NCBI GenBank assembly: GCA_001599975.1
Contig: BCIO01000003.1
Coordinates: 2,226,677-2,290,676 of the forward strand
Length of the DNA: 64,000 nucleotides
DNA from: Cystobasidiopsis lactophilus
Taxonomy: Eukaryota; Basidiomycota; Agaricostilbomycetes; Agaricostilbales; Chionosphaeraceae
Direction of reading: 5' to 3'
This document shows, in pieces, positions 52,761 through 63,669 of the stretch (position 1 is its first letter; each line of letters opens with the position of its first letter). A program made the position numbers and the translations under genes. The notes beneath the pieces were generated by a model. It ran no database searches and had not been told where the DNA came from. It saw only the letters and a list, made by a program, of their open reading frames with translations.

Positions 52761-54904
52761 TCACCAATGGTGCCGCTCTGTAATTAGCTTGACTGCCCGC
52801 AGCTGCTCCGCCTTGCCCATTGCGATCCTGACGTTTAAGCTGGCAGCCGCCTTCCTAACATCTGCAACAAATGCGTCTGGCCCGCAGGCGACGATGGTGA
52901 GAATGTTGGTACCAGATGCAGCGGCCGTCGAAATGAGCTTTTGTAGCTGAGGCCGGTCGGTGGCAAATGCGAATTCGTACCCCTCTTCCTTGTCTTGGGG
53001 TCCGTCTTCAGTGACATGAGTCTGAAGAGAGTATCGAGAGGTAGATTTGTCTTGATTTGGTGGGAAAAGAGAAAGATAGCTCGACATAGCCGCGACGTGC
53101 TTGGCGGCCAGCACTACTCGAAGTGACTTGAAGGCGCTAGGCGGACCAGCCACCAGCTTGTTGGCGATGCCAGACACGAAGGTGATGCCTTGATTGAGTT
53201 TGAGTCAAGCGGAATGCAACGGTATCAAGACAAGCATGGCTTACCGGAGCCACCCGCAAGTAGAAGGATATCGGAGTCGGGATCAACCTTGATCTCTTCC
53301 CCGTAGGGACCATCGAGCCAAACGCTCGTCCTGAAGCTTCCGCTGCGTGCTTTCTTGGCCAACATCGCCGTCGTGCCTTTGCAGACTTTGGCCAGCAAGA
53401 TCAGCTCGAAGTGCTGCCCGTGCGAATGCTCCGACACATTGGCGATAGTGAAGGGGTGGGAGAATAGCGCGTGTGTGCCGGTAAGGAAACGAACGAATAC
53501 ATGCTGGCCGCAAGCCCATTCGATGCCGTTGACGGCGAGGCCGGTGATCCGGATCTTGAGGACGTGCTCGCCAGCGGGTTCGACTTCGGCGGAATACGAA
53601 GTCACGATGTTGGTCCAGATGGTCGCCCCGGCTCGGTAAAGTACGGATGCGCCATACAGAGCGAATATCGAGTAGAAGTACGCCCACTGCAAACCTGCCT
53701 TTAGGCTGCTCTCAATTGGCACAGTGTGTGGACCGCTTACGCTCGTTTGAGTATTTCCGCAGTGGATGAAGAAGAAGACGAAAAAGACAACGGCTGCCAG
53801 GCGATGCATGAACTTGAAGATCTCGTATTGCCAATTCCTGTTCATCGCCTTTAGCAGCTTACTTTGGACCGTGACCTTGAAACTCACCTCAGAGGTTTAA
53901 CGCTTGCAAAGGTGAGCCAGCCTACACAATGAATCAGTCTCATCGACGGCTGAGCAATAGACTTCGCTGACCTTGGGCAACCAATCTGTCAAACGCCATC
54001 AGGAAGACGCACACGTAAGATAAGAGTGAATAGAGACGCACGCAATGACTCCAGTCCATATATATGGGTCCGTACTCCACTCCATTTCCATCATTCCCAC
54101 TTGAACGTCAAAATAGATGAAGGGAAACTGGAGGCCAACTGAGTCCGGCTGAAATGAAGTCGCGGGTCTTTGCTCACTGTATGTAAAAGAGCAAGAATCA
54201 CTATCGGCAAAGAGAGTGAGGGATGATCCGCAAGCCGTTCTGAACGCACGCACTCGAGTAGTAGGCAATCCATCGGTGGTAAATGTTGAGCCTTTCGTGG
54301 GACACGCCGGTGGCCAGAGTCACCCAGCTCTTTTTGGCTCCCAAGAGAAAGAGCATTGGAGTCAAGCCAAGGCAGATGTAGCCCGACCTGGTGGCAAGCG
54401 GAGGGGAGAACTGCCAGTCCAAGCCTGGCCAGTAGTAAAGGCCCGGTGCAAAGGTGATCAACAAAAGGAAGAGGCCAAGGCCTCCAATTGCGAGCGCATC
54501 ACCAAGGCTCGCGGGCGACAAAGGAGGGACCCGGACGTCTTGGGCTTTAAGGAAGCGGAAGACAGCCAGCGCTTTGGTCCAGCTAGGCCTCTTCAAAAGG
54601 CTGGCGTGAAGGTCGGGTCGCCTTGTTGTGGCCAAGGAAAGAAGACGCATCAGGATGCAGAGGGACACGAAAGCGACTTGGATGTAGACCGTGGGCAGCC
54701 TGGCTATTCGGGTCAGGTCTCGTAGGGAAGGCAGTTGGAGCATCTCACGCGTAGACGAGGTCTGCGATCCACCAATTGTGCCAATGCTCGGATCGAATGC
54801 GGCATTGATCTTCAATTCCTTCACACGTTTCCCAAGGGAAAGTGTGATTCGTCGCCGTCGAGATCATCAATGCTGGAAGGCCCATCTTTGCTCGTCGTGG
54901 TCAT
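52761..54904 (-). CDS. Ferric-reductase-type flavocytochrome oxidoreductase
   Basis: This protein has the FRE/NOX layout: membrane heme domain, FAD site, NAD(P) site, probably moving electrons across the plasma membrane to metal ions or oxygen. The start at 54904 gives an acidic N-terminus (MTTTSKDGPSSIDDLDGDES); an intron leads to TSSTREMLQLPSLRDL. Membrane segments include LPTVYIQVAFVSLCILM, LGLFLLLITFAPGLYYW, YICLGLTPMLFLLGA and VVFFVFFFIHCG. Putative heme histidines lie in NIYHRWIAYY and FMHRLAAV. The FAD motif is HPFTIANV, the nucleotide site DILLLAGGSG and VACGPDAFV. It ends ITERHHW. About eight introns; exons near 53890-54200 are approximate. Iron or copper specificity cannot be told. 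Confidence 0.88.
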
Positions 54905-55447: not shown

Positions 55448-58246
55448 TCAAAACTCGTCCGAGTCCACCTCTTCAAAGTCAGAGTAGACCGAAGAGCCGA
55501 CTTCGCTGAAGCTCTCATCGGACAACGAAGAGGACTTGACGCTGCTTTTGGGGCCGCCTTTCAAAGCGAGAGCGGGGGTGCTGGTCTTGGTGGACTGGGT
55601 GGAAGGCTTGGAGCTCTGGCTGCCCAGCGAAACCAGGGTGCCACTCTTGGACGACTTGACACTGCTGGTCTGGCTACCGAGCGAGGACAAGGGGGAGGTG
55701 CTGTTGGAACCTTGGATAGAGAGCTCGTCAAACCCAGAGCAGAGGCTAATGACGCCGGTGTCGGTCAACGCCAGCGGGATGATCTTGCTGGGCGCGTTGG
55801 TGGCAACGAAGGGCGCTTCGATAAAGAGATCGCGAAAGCGCGAGTTCGATCTGGTGCTGTCGGACGCGGGTTTGCCGAACCCAATGACGCTTTGAACCTG
55901 CGAGCCACACTTGCAGGTGCGAGCGGGCCTCTTCTCCAGGCAAGACGAGCAGACTGAGTGGCGACAGGGCTTGAGGACGACAGCGGCACGTCGACTGCCG
56001 CAAGAGTGGCAGAGTGGAGGATTGTCGGGGTCGAGAACCGTAGAAGAAGCAGTAGCCCTGCGCTGACGGCTAAGAATGGTGTCGATGGACTCGGTGTAAC
56101 CAAGAAGGTTGCCGGTTTGCGCGGTCGGATAATTTTTGTCGTAAAGTTTGAAGTACGGAAAGCCTTGCTGCTGGTAGAGCGATCGAGTGACCGGGCTTCT
56201 TGGTGGCAACACTCCGGTCACATTCTAAGCCAAGCTAAGCTTGAGAGCGGCCTTGGTCCGAAATCCTGCGACTTACTTCAAACTCGTCGGTGTTCAGGAT
56301 AGAAACGCAGATGCGGACACCCTTGGACACATCGTACATGGTCGGCAAGGTGTTTTTGTAGACCTTCTGTTCGATCTCGCCTCCTCGGCCAAGTCCAAGC
56401 TCGGCGTCAGCATTCACAGGCCCTCCTCCTCGAAGTCGCAAAACGAGGTGCAAGATACTGCCAGATCGAATGTTGTTGTCGCTAAGCCAGTGTTGGTCCG
56501 ACGGCTCTTGACCCGCAAAGATCAAACGTTGTTGGTCAGGAGGGATGCCTGTCGTAAGAGACCGTTGAAGTGCGCACGAAAAGGTTAACACATGATGACT
56601 ATTGACCTTCTTTGTCCTGTATGTTGGCCTTGATGGCTTCGAAGTCGTCAGAGGGATCGGCGTTCACCGCGATTACTTTTTTGGTCAGCGTCGTAACAAT
56701 CAGGTGGAAGCCAGACGGGGTGACCAGAAGGTCCAGATCGCTTTCAGGTGGGACGTTGTAAGACGCAAGAGAGTCTTTCTCGTTGAGTATTTCACCGTGC
56801 CAAATAAGGCATTGCTGGCTGGGCGAGATACCTGTTCAGAATGATCATGCAAATGCGCCTAAGAAGAGCCGGAGGAAAGGCCCGGCTGACCTTCTGTCTT
56901 GGCGATGCGAACTTTGAGCATACCAATGGTGTCCAGTGGAGTGGCCTCGACTTCGAAGGCCTTGCCAGTCGAGGTCTTGATGAACACCCTTAATTGCATG
57001 TTGAAGGTGTCGAGTTTGAGACGGGCCAGTTGTTCAAACGTGAGCTCGTTAAAGTCGAGATGCAGGGCGATGTCGAACTTCTGGCGCTTAGCGGCATACA
57101 TATGAACGGAGTAAGGCCAGCCATTTTCGTTGCGGCCGCGGTGTACTTTCGGTAGACCGCGGCTAGCAGGTATCTTGTCGAAGCCGTGAGTCTTTGTGCT
57201 GATATCTGGAAGAGCAACTCACGATGTCGAAGCAGAGGCCGCCATTTGCGTTGCCGGAAATTTGCTCCGGGACAGTGGCTCCCTTTCCGATCGCAGAGGC
57301 CACGAACTTGACGAGAGCGGATCAGTTGTATTCAGATGCAAGAATTACCAAGCATGGCGAAGCTCACTTGACCAACGACGCCAGGTTTGAGGGCAAAACC
57401 GTCCAGCCAAGGTTGAAGCGGCACGACAAGATACTGGACAAAATATGAGCTGTGTTTTTAGAATGAGAGTACAGTCCATACGTCCTGCAGCAAGTCCATT
57501 TTGGCTGAAAGCTTGTTGTAAGCACATGGACGGCGGAGGCCAATGAAAGGAGGCGCACCGCCATCCGAAAGACCAGTCAAAGCGTTGACGCCCCCGACCG
57601 AGAGCTTGACGGCGAAGTTGGCCTGAGACTCAAAGTTGATCCACATGGCTTCAGCTTGCATCATGGGCTGCAGGGAGAAGGTCAGCACTTCACACCGAAT
57701 GACATGATGTGGGCCCTTACGATGAACCAGCCGCCACGGTCAGCGATGGCTTTGGGTAGGTTTTTGGCAAATGGCTCCACGGGAAACAAAGGGAAGCTGG
57801 ACATTACCACTTACCCTGAGCGTCCGTTCAAAACACATGGAGAAACCTCCCAAGGAAAGTTCGATGCTTGTGCCAGTGCTGGAGACCTCGGGACAGGCGG
57901 CCGGCCCGCAAGAAGTCGGCAGACCATGTTGATTGATGAGCTCGCATGCCCATGCAGTCTCAAGCTGTTCGGTGTTGATCTTGAAGCTTCCATGATATTG
58001 AGGCTGGCCAGTGGTGGCCTCAAGCGACAAAGTGTTGGGATTCGAGGGAATGCAGTTGGAGTCCGGCTTCTCGTAACCGGCAAGGGCGATGGAGCTGCAC
58101 AGCTTTTGATCTTTCCATATGTCTTTTTTCTTCAAGTTGGCCGGCACTTGGACTTTGAGGGTGCCGTTGAGCTGAGTGCTGGCGGCGAGAGGTCGCAGGC
58201 CCTTCAAGGTGATGGGAACGACTTTTTCCTCGTTTTCGGTGCCCAT
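55448..58246 (-). CDS. Ubiquitin-like/RING protein, copy 1 (internal ubiquitin domain with LRLRGG)
   Basis: An uncharacterised fungal family member. From the ATG at 58246: an N-terminal region ([20 protein letters not shown]), a conserved block ([56 protein letters not shown]), a first diverged ubiquitin-like domain ([20 protein letters not shown]), then a second one containing [20 protein letters not shown] and ending [13 protein letters not shown]. Next follow [34 protein letters not shown] and YFKLYDKNY, a Cys/His cluster with RING-like spacing ([21 protein letters not shown]), and a Ser-rich acidic tail. Relative to ubiquitin, Ile44 is kept but Lys48 reads Gln and Lys63 reads Ser. About eight introns. 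It lies in tandem with copy 2. Confidence 0.8.
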
Positions 58247-58754
58247 TTCGCAAGCACTTCGTCGAGCAAGGTCAAAGAGGGCAATAGAGGAACAGGCGCA
58301 GGTCTGACAGGACCCTCGATCTAGATATCGGAGGCAAGGTCACAGGTGAGCGAGTTCAATTACGCCACAGATCTTGACAGGTCGGCGTCCACGCTCAGAT
58401 GCTAGCACCGGCAGCATCTACGTATTCCTCGACTCGTTGATGGCGTAGGCTTGAGACGCTTCAGTCGAAATCTCTCAGGGGCAGCGGGAAGCAGGCAGGA
58501 AGCGGCCGACACAGGGAGCTGCATCGAGAAGTGGGGCTTGCTCGAACCACGACGGAGCACGGAAAGTTNATGAAAAGAAGATGGCAGCAATTGGGACAGC
58601 TCAAAGTTGAAGTCGAAGAAGAGGAAGTCTAAGGCGCAAGGCTCCTGGAGCTGATCATTCTGGATCAAGCGTATGGTCCCGCTTCATCCCGTATTGTACA
58701 CAATCGTAGAGAATCGTAGGTGATTGTACATNCCGATCCGGCTGGTGGCGAAGG
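58247..58754. other. Intergenic region between the two ubiquitin-like/RING copies, with two undetermined bases
   Basis: 508 bp between the start of copy 1 and the stop of copy 2. No gene is seen. Undetermined bases (N) stand at 58569 and 58732; two more lie inside copy 2 at 58916 and 59407. Confidence 0.6.
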
Positions 58755-61239
58755 TCAAAAGTCGTGAGCGTCAATCTCTTCGAAGTCGCTCTCCTCAGTC
58801 TCGTCCGCTTCTTCGTCCTCGTCCTCCTCTTCTTCGTCCTCGTCCTCTCCTTCATCTTCGTCGCCGGACATCGAGCTATCCATCTGAGAAGGCGTCAAGC
58901 CACTGCAGAGAGGGANCACGCCACTGTCCGTCAAGACCAGAGGGATGATTTCGGAAGGTTGATAAGAAGCATCAACAGGGGCGTCGATGAAGAGGTTGGC
59001 GAAGGACTCGGCGAGGGCGTCGGATTTGACGGCGGGCTTGTTGAAACCAATCACACTCTTGATGACCACGCCACAATCGCAAGTGTATTCCGGCAAGTCC
59101 AAAACGAATTTGTTGTCGAGGCACGAACCACAGAAGGAGTGGCGGCAAGGTCTAGCGATGTGCGTGGCCATTCGGTTCTCGCAGTGGAAGCACGAGGGAG
59201 GGCTGTTACGCGCCAAAGCGGGCACTTCGACCTTGGCTTTCTTGCGCTTGCGCTCGAGGACGCCGTCCACGCTTTCGGTGAGCGAGAGCAAGTTGCCGTT
59301 CTGGGCGGCGGCGTAGTTTTCGTCATAGAGTTCGAACCAGGTGAAGCCATATTGTTCGTAAAGGCGAGGGTTGATTTGGGAAGGTGGAGCGAGGGTGCCG
59401 GTCACGNTCTGGATACAACCAAATGATATGAGATGAGGCAACTTGAGGAGATACCAAACAGACCTCGAACTCGAAGGAATTGATGATGGAGACATGGATG
59501 CGCACACCGTTGGCCACGTCGTAGTCAGTCGCTGAGGTCGAGTCACGGTAAATCTTCTGCACGATTTTGCCACCTCGGCCCACTCCCATCTCCGGCGTTG
59601 GAGCATCACCGCCGCCCCTCAAGCGCAGGACCAGATGAAGGGTCGATTCCTGGCCGATTTTGTAATATCCCAAAGTGCAGTTGTCCTTCAAGCTCGTCAG
59701 CCATGCCATCAACTTAACATCAGCAAGTGCGCGTACCTCGAGTTGTTTGGGCCCGAAGCTGAGCCTTTGCTCGTCAGGCGGAATGCCTGACAAGAGGGGC
59801 ATTTTGGCACTGCTAAAGCAGAGTAGAGGCTGCAATCTAGCACACCTTCCTTGTTCTGGATTTTCTCCTTGACATCTCCAATCAGCTCATCGGTGTACGC
59901 TTCGATGGTGATGGTCTTTCCCGTCAGCGTCTTGACGTAGAACTGCATTCTTTGATAACTGGACGTGAAGATGCTGGGGCCCAGAAGCTCGAGCTGGCCG
60001 ATGGACAAGTTCTGGACGGGAACGTCGACTTTCAAAGCGAAAGATTCGCCCTGTTTTGCGACGTAGGCGCCTCCGAGAGCCTTGGAAGTGGTTGAATGGA
60101 CAAGGTGGATCCGGCTCATGTTGTTGTTGGCGTGGGGAATCTGTCTTGCTTCGTGAGCATCTGAGAGGCGCACCAGATGCAAAGGACGAACGATATCGAA
60201 GCAGAGGCCGCCGTTGGCTTTGCCCAGAACCTGCTCGGCAATGGTGGCACCTTGGCCGAGTTCGGTGGCAACAAACTATCAAACGGTAAGGGCCCGCCAC
60301 ACACCGATCCCGCGGGGCTCACCTGCCCAACATTCCCGGGAGACATGGCAAATCCGTCAAGCCAGGGTTGCGGTGGCACAGGCATGTACTGACAGGACAT
60401 GCGTATTGGCAGCCGTTCCCAACGTGATCAGCATAGCGAGAACTCACGTCTTGCAGAGTCTTGTTTTCGGCTGCAGGTAGTTGGCTCTTTGTAAGAGATG
60501 GTAGTCAGTGGCTCTATGGCGAACTCACCTCCTTCGGCGAGTCCAGTCACGGCGTTCACTCCGCCCACGTTCAGTCGGACGGCAAACTTCTGAAAGGCCG
60601 AGCCGACACTGAAGCTTGCCCACATCGCTTCCGATTGCATCATGGGCAAGAAGTAGCCACCTCTGTCGACGATGGACTGCGGCAGGTTCTTGCGAAAGGG
60701 CTCGACGGGGTAGAGTGGGAAAGTGCCAAGGCCAGGTGGCAATTGGTGAGCCTTGCCGTCATCGGGGACCTGTGCAATGTCAGGACACGCATTATTTGAG
60801 AGCTCAAGAAGTCACGGACACGCAAAGTGCGGTGAAAGGTCAACGAGAACGACTTGTCAAAGGCGTTGATTTTGTTGCCGTCAGAAGTGATACGGGTCAC
60901 TTCCTGGAGGGCGAGCTTCTTGGCAAAGGTGGTCGTCCAGTCTTTGATGGTCTGTCCGACTTTCAGGGCAAGGGCAGGCGGTTGATAGCAGGCTTCGTCG
61001 GCGGTTTTGATGATGAGAGGCTCCAGGGTTCGGCGGGACACGTGGCCCGGCACTTGGAAGCCATTGTCAGACAAGGCCTTCTGGACGCTGCTGTCCTTCA
61101 GAACCTCGGCGAGGCGCAAGTTGGCAGGCACCTCGACCTCGAGCTCGCCGGTGGCCTCCCTGGCCTCAATGTCAGCACTGACTGGGCGCAGGTGCGTGAA
61201 CTTGATGATGCAGGTCTTGCTGGGTACGATGACGGCCAT
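58755..61239 (-). CDS. Ubiquitin-like/RING protein, copy 2 (single ubiquitin domain with LRLRGG)
   Basis: Paralogue of the neighbouring gene. Order from the ATG at 61239: N-terminal region ([20 protein letters not shown]), then [70 protein letters not shown] and [12 protein letters not shown]. One ubiquitin domain follows: [51 protein letters not shown]. After it come [51 protein letters not shown], a RING-like cluster ([24 protein letters not shown]) and a strongly acidic tail. Relative to ubiquitin, Lys48 is kept, Ile44 reads Ser and Lys63 reads Gln. The undetermined base at 58916 falls in a codon between GV and PLCSG, where copy 1 has GVISLCSG. Confidence 0.8.
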
Positions 61240-61564: not shown

Positions 61565-63432
61565 ATGTTTGCTCCGTTCAGCGTCGGCAAGGACAATTTC
61601 CAAGATGAAGACACGCCCGAGCTACGCAGGGTCCGCTCGGCGTCAATGCAGGCCAACGATGCGACTGAGCGCACCCAGCTGCTCTTGACCTTCCGGCCAA
61701 GCCCGAAGCGCGTGGACGCCGTGCTGGACTCCTTCGTGCTCAGATGGGCCGTCCTCTCCCTCTGGCCTTCAGTGATCATTTGGTTCTGGGTCGCGATTCC
61801 CTTTCCGCCGTCCAGCTCCGATTCGTCCATAGCTGCATGGGCACCCGTTGACCCTCAAGTAAGTGCCCTGGCGAGCCCTCGGCTTGAGAGATATCGGTAG
61901 CTCCTGAGCTAATCATGCGCACGCACACAGTTCCTCTTCTTCCTGCTTTGGATCTTTGGAGGCTACTTGGCCGCCGCGCTCTTGTTCATCACCGGCATCT
62001 TCAACTTGTATCGTCTGCATTGGTGGCCGGAGCGGCTGGGAGGCAAAATCTCGTACTTCGTGTTCTGGCTCGGCGCCTTGCTCGTCGCGTTTGCGCTTCA
62101 TCAGCTGGACTTGTTCGGCTCAAGGAACAGATGGAACCACAGGCAGCCAGGTGACAATGGGGAGAGCGATGTTGGACAGGATTGGGAGAGAAAAGGACTC
62201 TACACGGCGCTGGCAAGCTGCACCATGGCGTTCGTCCCGTTCTTCCGTCTTGATCTTTGTCAAGCTTGATGTATAAAGGCCCAACAGACTACCAGCGTGG
62301 GCTTGCTTCTTGAAGCTGCGGCGAGACAGGCGTCAGAGCTACCGCCATTCCATGACCGTCATGCAGAAGACGTTCTTAGAGCGCCAGCTCACCCAGCGCA
62401 TGCCGAGGTCCTACAAGCGCTTTCTTTGGTTTATGCTGTGCATCCTCATTGCGCTCTCGGCCCTCACTGCCGGGCAAATGTTCGCCTCCGTCTTCTTGGC
62501 CACCTTGCCGCACAATTCCTCGGAGGGGATCGTCTATGTGTGGACCTGGATCATGAGCGTCCAGATCTTGGCCTCATGTACGAGCTGGATCCTGGAGAAC
62601 AAGATTCGCTCAAAGGCCCTGCTCTTCATCTTCCGCGTGAGTCTCCGTTTCGCATTGCCTGCCGTAGCCGAGCCTTGGCCTAACGCCCCAACGCAGTATT
62701 ACTATTATCTGGCCTACTTCATCTTCTATCGCACACTGTTTGCCCGCTTGCGATCGCCAGACCAGTACCTCAAGATCCAGGCCATCAAGTCAGTTTCTCG
62801 CTTCGTCATATGAGTCCTCGCTCAAAATGGGACCACAGCTCCCTCTGGGTCATCATCGCCCATCCAGCTGCGTTCTCGAGGCCCGTGTGGTGGCTCATGA
62901 AGCAGGTCATCGCCTACGACAAGAGCTACGAAGACCACTGCGACTTCTTGGCTGTCTCCTTTTATCTCCGGAACGTGGCCGAGAATACGACCATCGTTTG
63001 CTTTCTGGGCTATTTGACCATCTTACGTTCGTGTTCGCCGCCATATTGTCGAGTGAAGGACCGCACTGACGAAGTCCAAACAGACTTTGGGCCGAACGTT
63101 TCGGTCTTTCCCTTCTTCGCCCTCGACCATCCTACCCAGCATGATCCGTACAACTTTCGCCTCACTTCTATCGCCACTCTGGTCATTTGGGCTTCTGAGC
63201 TGGTCTCTTCCTTCATTGCACGGCGCTTCATCGGCTGGATCCACAAGGTCAACGTCACCGAGGCGGGGCTGGAGGAGATGCGCAACTACCCAGAGCTCTT
63301 GCCCGCGTTAACGACCACCAGCGTCCATGTCATCTCGGACATCGTGAGTCTTGGTTCTCTGGGGGCAAAATCCAGGACTGACTCAATTTCCTCTCCCAGT
63401 TGCTTTTTCTCATTAGACTCAATTTCAACTAA
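61565..63432 (+). CDS. Polytopic membrane protein (unknown)
   Basis: I do not recognise the family. From the ATG at 61565 a hydrophilic N-terminus (MFAPFSVGKDNFQDEDTPEL) precedes about eight hydrophobic helices: RWAVLSLWPSVIIWFWVA, FLFFLLWIFGGYLAAALLF, YFVFWLGALLVAFALHQ, FLWFMLCILIALSALTAG, IVYVWTWIMSVQILAS, YYYYLAYFIFYRTLF, IVCFLGYLTIL and LTSIATLVIWASELVSSF. Hydrophilic loops include LERQLTQRMPRSYKRF and WWLMKQVIAYDKSYEDHCDF. The last exon is very short (LLFLIRLNFN) before a stop at 63432. About six introns; those near 62110-62290 and 63025-63090 are uncertain. No transporter signature is evident; an organelle or plasma-membrane protein of unknown role is the safest description. Confidence 0.7.
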
Positions 63433-63669
63433 TCACGTTCACAACCAAATGTACACAGAAGGGGGTCTTATGTGGGCACTTTGACAATATCATGCATTGC
63501 GATATCCGCCTCGTCTCATGGGAATGTTTTTTGCTTTGCTGTGGCGAGAAGGAACTGTGCCACTTGTAAAAAAACATGCAATTAGAGATGAACAGTTATG
63601 TTTAAATGTCCGTTGTGTCTATGTGAAATGATGTGTTGCTATAGGAGTGTCCAAGCTGCACTCGCTGCC

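Follow-up and report, generated by a model that had tools for sequence, protein, structure and literature searches.

What becomes of a protein that carries ubiquitin and a RING-like zinc cluster in a single chain? The question is raised by two neighbouring genes, here called A and B, on a 64,000-nucleotide stretch of DNA (the window) from the basidiomycete Cystobasidiopsis lactophilus (GenBank assembly GCA_001599975.1, contig BCIO01000003.1, positions 2,226,677 to 2,290,676 of the forward strand). A preliminary description had read them as tandem paralogues with an unusual domain order, and our analysis bears out its coordinates, the tandem paralogy and the order, with both genes on the minus strand (Table 1). 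Common to the two are a conserved block (blk) with the motifs GGVNA and PWLDGFA, which that description had picked out, a ubiquitin ending in LRLRGG, a second domain (cd), a C3HC4-like cluster and a tail; the tail, described as acidic, is strongly so in gene A, whereas that of gene B is mainly Ser-rich and acidic only at its end. Both genes belong, as fungal representatives, to a family that is apparently undescribed and has at its core a bacterial two-domain protein made up of blk, a variable linker and cd. In eukaryotic members the linker holds one or two complete ubiquitins immediately ahead of cd, and in basidiomycetes and a few others cd is followed by a RING-type domain. Our best explanation of the two genes as a whole, comprising this anatomy, a putative processing as ubiquitin fusions and a role, has in our estimate about even chances of being right.

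A two-domain family in bacteria and eukaryotes

With residues 130-345 of gene A as query (a full-length search was swamped by polyubiquitin), 137 proteins were found at E ≤ 1e-3, 120 of which were listed and underlie the architecture counts. The block, taken for a fungal one in the preliminary description, proved to be common to bacteria, with named members from Nordella, Paraburkholderia, Nocardia and Polyangiales; the Nordella protein P0137 matches the block region of gene A at E 6e-34. Named ubiquitin-bearing members come from Piloderma, Leucosporidium, Mycena, Flagelloscypha and Pelomyxa. Residues 434-660 of gene A gave no match at E ≤ 1e-3 among 1434 candidates; though this direct C-terminal search found nothing, profiles seeded with P0135 for blk, P0195 for cd and ubiquitin, run together with a RING-core motif on the 120 relatives and gene A, detected cd in most of the block relatives, and in gene A blk is followed by cd as in the bacterial proteins. 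The architectures were blk-cd (69), blk-ub-cd (17), blk-ub-cd-RING (14, gene A included), ub-blk-ub-cd (5), blk-cd-RING (4) and others (12, across nine patterns), where ub is ubiquitin. Counting short degenerate pieces as ubiquitin, 15 of the 120 relatives combine it with the RING motif, 27 have ubiquitin only, 4 the motif only and 74 neither. Among the members scanned against Pfam, NCBIfam, PADLOC or PHROGs, none had a family match in blk or cd, a 40-row profile of ubiquitin-free members met no PDB sequence up to E 10, structure searches of PDB were filled by ubiquitin matches, and a literature search, mostly at abstract level, found no account of the blk-cd family or of a natural interrupted ubiquitin. 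The pair is without a known family match, yet it spans bacterial phyla, fungi, Pelomyxa, other protists and probably giant viruses, which makes the family a test case for the entry of a bacterial module into the ubiquitin system; the direction of transfer between bacteria and eukaryotes is one that we infer.

A search with P0180 alone and exact peptide patterns yielded at least 54 bacterial loci (L009-L062) in genomes of many bacterial phyla. A profile built from the upstream open reading frame (ORF) of 30 of these loci located an XRE-type helix-turn-helix gene directly upstream, in the same orientation, in 48 of the 54 (48 of 56 when two viral contigs are included). This regulator subfamily occurred once per genome at E ≤ 1e-10 in all 15 genomes searched, with 57-81% identity to the query and, by coordinates matched by hand, upstream of blk in each. 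In the phylum of L023, blk-cd occurred in 9 of 294 genomes. After core and regulator, the next neighbour cluster comprises 12 loci, those inspected lying on the opposite strand and overlying regulator or core, and any further cluster at most 6. Eukaryotic members share with the bacterial proteins the order of blk and cd and the conserved motifs but carry ubiquitin and RING, whereas the bacterial regulator is a neighbouring gene; no XRE-type gene was seen by eye among the ORFs of the window, on which the regulator profile was not run. In a Cyanobacteria-labelled genome, two tandem blk-cd genes stand behind one regulator gene (L011, 7078-9216), a parallel to the tandem pair A and B.

That the family probably reaches giant viruses is suggested by predicted structures: the model of P0240 matched predicted proteins of Harvfovirus (E 4.5e-29 and 9e-28 over about 560 columns, query-length TM-scores of 0.59 and 0.56) and of Hyperionvirus (E 4e-17). 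Contigs labelled uncultured viral contain 27 loci encoding blk and cd, 25 of them in one frame and 12 with the regulator within the flanks; no ubiquitin was found in these loci at E 1e-3, and they look like the bacterial form.

Ubiquitin parts around the block

In five protist-type relatives (P0232, P0234, P0235, P0239 and P0240), blk sits inside ubiquitin, where 270-335 residues separate ubiquitin residue 53 from 54, and the predicted model of one of them superposes on ubiquitin with 0.9 Å over 71 residues. In the ubiquitin structure comparison, the highest Z belonged to 5jbv_B, with a root-mean-square deviation of 10.8 and an identity of 6% across the same range; for the remaining rows shown the deviation was 0.8-2.8. 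Ubiquitin-like parts on both sides of blk are evident in these relatives; in gene A, the N-terminal region may be a degenerate ubiquitin-like counterpart, given its homologous position in the model of P0123. Profile comparisons with ubiquitin were not significant for a 15-row N-terminal alignment (E 0.067, probability 0.8%) or for the post-block alignment (remaining match E 0.21), whose strong ubiquitin match was discarded as stemming from an extra ubiquitin of P0127. When the segments preceding the linker ubiquitin were tested as a ubiquitin C-part, only P0127, P0135, P0192 and gene B among 22 reached p ≤ 0.003, the segment in P0127 and gene B belonging to an extra ubiquitin; gene A gave p 0.90.

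We tentatively propose, with somewhat less than even confidence, that eukaryotes wrapped ubiquitin round a bacterial protein. In the protist-type group the separated parts would refold as one natural interrupted ubiquitin, while the fungal members, gene A included, would share this nested layout but have a decayed first ubiquitin and, ahead of cd, a second that is still intact, and a bacterial two-domain protein would thus have turned into a ubiquitin-processed sensor or effector. If true, even this most conserved fold can accommodate some 270 or more inserted residues in nature. Laboratory split-ubiquitin and domain-insertion constructs exist, including PDB 3q3f, in which ubiquitin is inserted into another protein; they have in common with our five relatives a ubiquitin fold formed from, or tolerating, separated parts, but the relatives occur in nature and have blk lodged within ubiquitin at 53/54.

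A tree of 119 blk sequences, based on few columns (147) and rooted arbitrarily, contains one group (support 98/95) in which 35 of 36 rows bear ubiquitin or RING and which holds gene A and the fungal names. Twelve more ubiquitin rows (Pelomyxa, P0135-type, interrupted types and P0187) fall outside it, beside a few ubiquitin-free rows. A single clade of 49 rows, of which 47 bear ubiquitin or RING and two, added by hand, bear neither, was not rejected (approximately unbiased test, p-AU 0.35); the free tree splits these rows. RING was probably gained more than once, because the RING of P0187 passes the Pfam cut-off (35.0 versus 27) and that of P0228 stands near the N-terminus, before blk, as seen in precomputed Pfam matches (the RING motif misses it). 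The N-terminal RING of P0228 is perhaps an independent gain.

Processing of the linker ubiquitin and its rivals

The ubiquitin claimed in the preliminary description has the beta-grasp ubiquitin fold and lies well above the cut-off of PF00240 in gene A (residues 363-433, E 4e-22, 78.1 bits versus 25.4) and above it in the downstream part of gene B (two stretches, E 1e-33, 115.3 bits), so that one clear ubiquitin is counted in gene A and two stretches in gene B; LRLRGG ends the unit of A and the second unit of B. Across 28 linker units, taken from 26 relatives and from genes A and B, LR[L/M]RGG was found in 19, followed by Gly in 16 and by Pro, Trp or Phe in three. In a conservation test on 20 complete units, after eight that were truncated, tail-less, gapped or near copies had been dropped, mean identity to ubiquitin was 0.66 and that of the tail 0.93, the top of 71 six-residue windows (next 0.92), with K48 at 0.55 and K63 at 0.30.

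It is conceivable, although we would rate it a little short of an even chance, that the linker ubiquitin of the fungal members is a processable fusion. Deubiquitinases would cut at LRLRGG|G. The C-terminal product, cd-RING, would then start with Gly, and the N-terminal one, with blk, would carry at its end a ubiquitin whose diglycine is free and which in principle could undergo activation and conjugation; in this way the separation of two bacterial domains with an ancestral link would be tied to the ubiquitin cycle. Ubiquitin fusion precursors are known as ubiquitin-ribosomal proteins and polyubiquitin. They likewise consist of a true ubiquitin unit continued at LRLRGG by another protein part; here, in contrast, ubiquitin stands mid-chain after some 360 residues, without a ribosomal part, and between two domains that form one protein in bacteria.

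Less firmly than the mechanism, we would see the role in the sensing of stress or conflict in the cytosol and not in housekeeping, because of the patchy distribution, the dedicated bacterial regulator gene and single effector-type fusions. The latter comprise an OGG-like DNA glycosylase (PF21790, E 1e-15) joined to regulator, blk and cd in P0165, a matrixin domain in P0231 (25.2 bits, cut-off 24), a weak MLKL_N match in P0130 and a DUF676 esterase in the fungal P0225 (26.6 bits, cut-off 20.3), which we take as belonging to the SesB-like group. MLKL-like and SesB-like domains occur at the N-termini of fungal NOD-like receptors (PMC9815663). No Pfam match to NACHT or NB-ARC, by which such a receptor would be recognized, was obtained for gene A, the downstream part of gene B, P0130, P0200 or P0225. 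Long extra C-terminal parts without a Pfam match above cut-off were also noticed in P0218, P0155 and P0178; by eye, those of P0155 and P0218 are candidates for a nuclease-type and a DNA-glycosylase-type domain, respectively. A reading as bacterial defence was discarded other than as a weak hint at the role: PADLOC gave no matches for P0137, P0158, P0180, P0237, P0123 and P0135, and its matches elsewhere were weak and outside blk and cd (P0144, ZorF-like, E 0.023; P0165, capH, E 0.018, and HTH_VI, E 0.051).

Several points weigh against the processing mechanism and the proposed role. Nine of the 28 linker units are without LR[L/M]RGG, several ascomycete members retain only degenerate ubiquitin pieces, and the conservation test is biased toward the tail because the dropped units include tail-less ones, so that its outcome supports processing rather than proving it. 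Pro directly follows GG in P0145 and in four of the six interrupted-ubiquitin relatives; deubiquitinases cut poorly before Pro, and the ubiquitin of these relatives may stay uncut. The hydrophobic patch of gene A is altered by Ser at position 44. As to the role, the regulator is strongly conserved and present in one copy per genome, unlike fast-evolving defence, no PADLOC family matched blk or cd in the proteins run, the MLKL_N match of P0130 is below cut-off (19.8 versus 27), and the effector-type fusions are single cases among proteins whose long extra parts were picked by eye, which gives no rate. Cleavage, conjugation and expression of the fungal members are predictions.

The nearest rival to processing holds that ubiquitin remains uncut and acts as a permanent domain for docking and folding, bringing the protein for example to ubiquitin receptors or the proteasome, with LRLRGG only a flexible linker; we rate this slightly below processing, and Pro after GG speaks for it in the relatives that carry it. 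It would be in line with the tail of the P0240 model, a stretch between ubiquitin and cd with predicted local distance difference test (pLDDT) values under 50, and with the several rows in which the units have degenerated while blk and cd persist. A mere linker would, however, hardly be among the best-kept parts of otherwise diverged complete units, nor so often be followed by Gly, and the hydrophobic patch that ubiquitin receptors use varies, as with Ser44 of gene A. Processing is the reading we retain for the fungal members.

Least supported is the self-contained modifier system suggested in the preliminary description, in which RING would act as ubiquitin ligase (E3) for the ubiquitin of the same chain; we consider it unlikely. 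The combination of the two in one chain is real, as the 15 relatives attest by profile and motif, and the transcript-derived P0187 (Trinity) holds ubiquitin parts, blk, cd and RING in one reading frame, against the view that the parts belong to separate genes. The RING-like cluster also stands: A and B keep all eight C3HC4 ligands in order (C-x2-C...C-x-H-x2-C-x2-C...C-x-C), and the model of the relative P0123, bearing on the structural check that had been proposed, shows beta-beta-alpha elements over the cluster (10-residue pLDDT 81-92), as in RING-type zinc fingers (PF00097, PF13920). Unlike these, the clusters of A and B reach the cut-off of no Pfam RING model (best scores in Table 1) and end in C-x-C. 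Certain RING positions contact the ubiquitin-conjugating enzyme (E2), and an Arg or Lys after the last Cys serves as linchpin; neither is kept in A (CFHC...CDCG) or B (CHSC...CKCG), while P0187 and P0122 show a hydrophobic residue within the first pair of ligands and an Arg or Lys behind the last one, and the RINGs of P0187 and P0228 may likewise be cited in favour. The system is unsupported because these residues are missing in A and B and because ubiquitin and RING are each also found on their own. It is similarly improbable that A and B are decaying relics: gene B has a frame break and gene A a long end branch in the tree (0.8 versus a median of 0.13), but all eight exons of A are open with GT-AG splice sites and every zinc ligand kept, the nine downstream exons of B are open, and its break may be an assembly error.

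Gene models and flanking frames

Table 1. Features of genes A and B, in positions of the window
Feature	Position	Strand	Remarks
Gene A	58755..61239	minus	701 aa; ATG 61239, stop ends 58755; 8 exons, 7 GT-AG introns of 47-59 bases
Gene A exons	61239-60820, 60769-60529, 60470-60448, 60388-60323, 60275-59846, 59786-59737, 59685-59464, 59408-58755	minus	spliced frame
Gene A N-terminal region, putative degenerate ubiquitin-like part	60910..61218	minus	homologous position in P0123 model
Gene A blk	60186..60852	minus	spans introns; profile residues 135-279
Gene A ubiquitin unit, aa 360-435	59611..59948	minus	spans two introns; 52/76 identical to ubiquitin; Ser at position 44
Gene A LRLRGG then Gly	59611..59628	minus	possible deubiquitinase cleavage site; sequence and conservation
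Gene A cd, second domain of bacterial family	59268..59589	minus	spans intron; profile residues 443-531
Gene A RING-like C3HC4 cluster, aa 557-596, last pair C-x-C	59073..59192	minus	ligand pattern; PF00097 15.2 bits, below cut-off 21
Gene A acidic tail, aa 662-701	58758..58877	minus	sequence
Gene B	55448..58246	minus	tandem paralogue of gene A; ATG 58246 (exon 1), stop ends 55448
Gene B frame break	57796..57814	minus	18-base GT...AG stretch (57814-57797) in place of conserved motif VPDD..LPPGLG of relatives
Gene B downstream exons	57795-57721, 57667-57559, 57504-57482, 57433-57368, 57306-57223, 57191-56891, 56831-56607, 56548-56277, 56224-55448	minus	
Gene B first ubiquitin-like unit, degenerate	56710..56999	minus	31/75 identical to ubiquitin; ends DLLVTPSG; spans intron
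Gene B second ubiquitin unit	56424..56709	minus	47/76 identical to ubiquitin; ends LRLRGG-G; spans intron; PF00240
Gene B RING-like C3HC4 cluster, last pair C-x-C	55907..56011	minus	PF13920 19.3 bits, below cut-off 27

Past 57795, gene B consists of nine stop-free exons with eight GT-AG introns of 31-61 bases (that of 31 bases being short) and encodes 643 aa, 43.5% identical to gene A over 563 columns. Its reading frame is disrupted between exon 1 and the remaining exons, where the GT...AG stretch, too short for an intron, replaces a motif strongly conserved among relatives. Single introns of at least 25 bases with GT or GC donors allowed 34 open joins across the break, none of which retains the conserved FERTLR. 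The break may be a mutation or an assembly error, the latter because the window contains N calls, four in number (58569, 58732, 58916 and 59407), two of them within the span of gene A. All four fall within 840 bases of one another, inside gene A or a short way downstream of it, and hint at locally poor assembly. Beyond genes A and B, the 22.1-Mb genome contains no match to blk or cd-RING of gene A at E ≤ 0.01. Two candidate neighbours were noted by eye: an ORF with several membrane stretches at 54201-54824 on the minus strand, resembling the start of a ferric-reductase-type protein, and, adjoining gene A on the plus strand (61565-63480), open frames that may form a gene for a multi-pass membrane protein.

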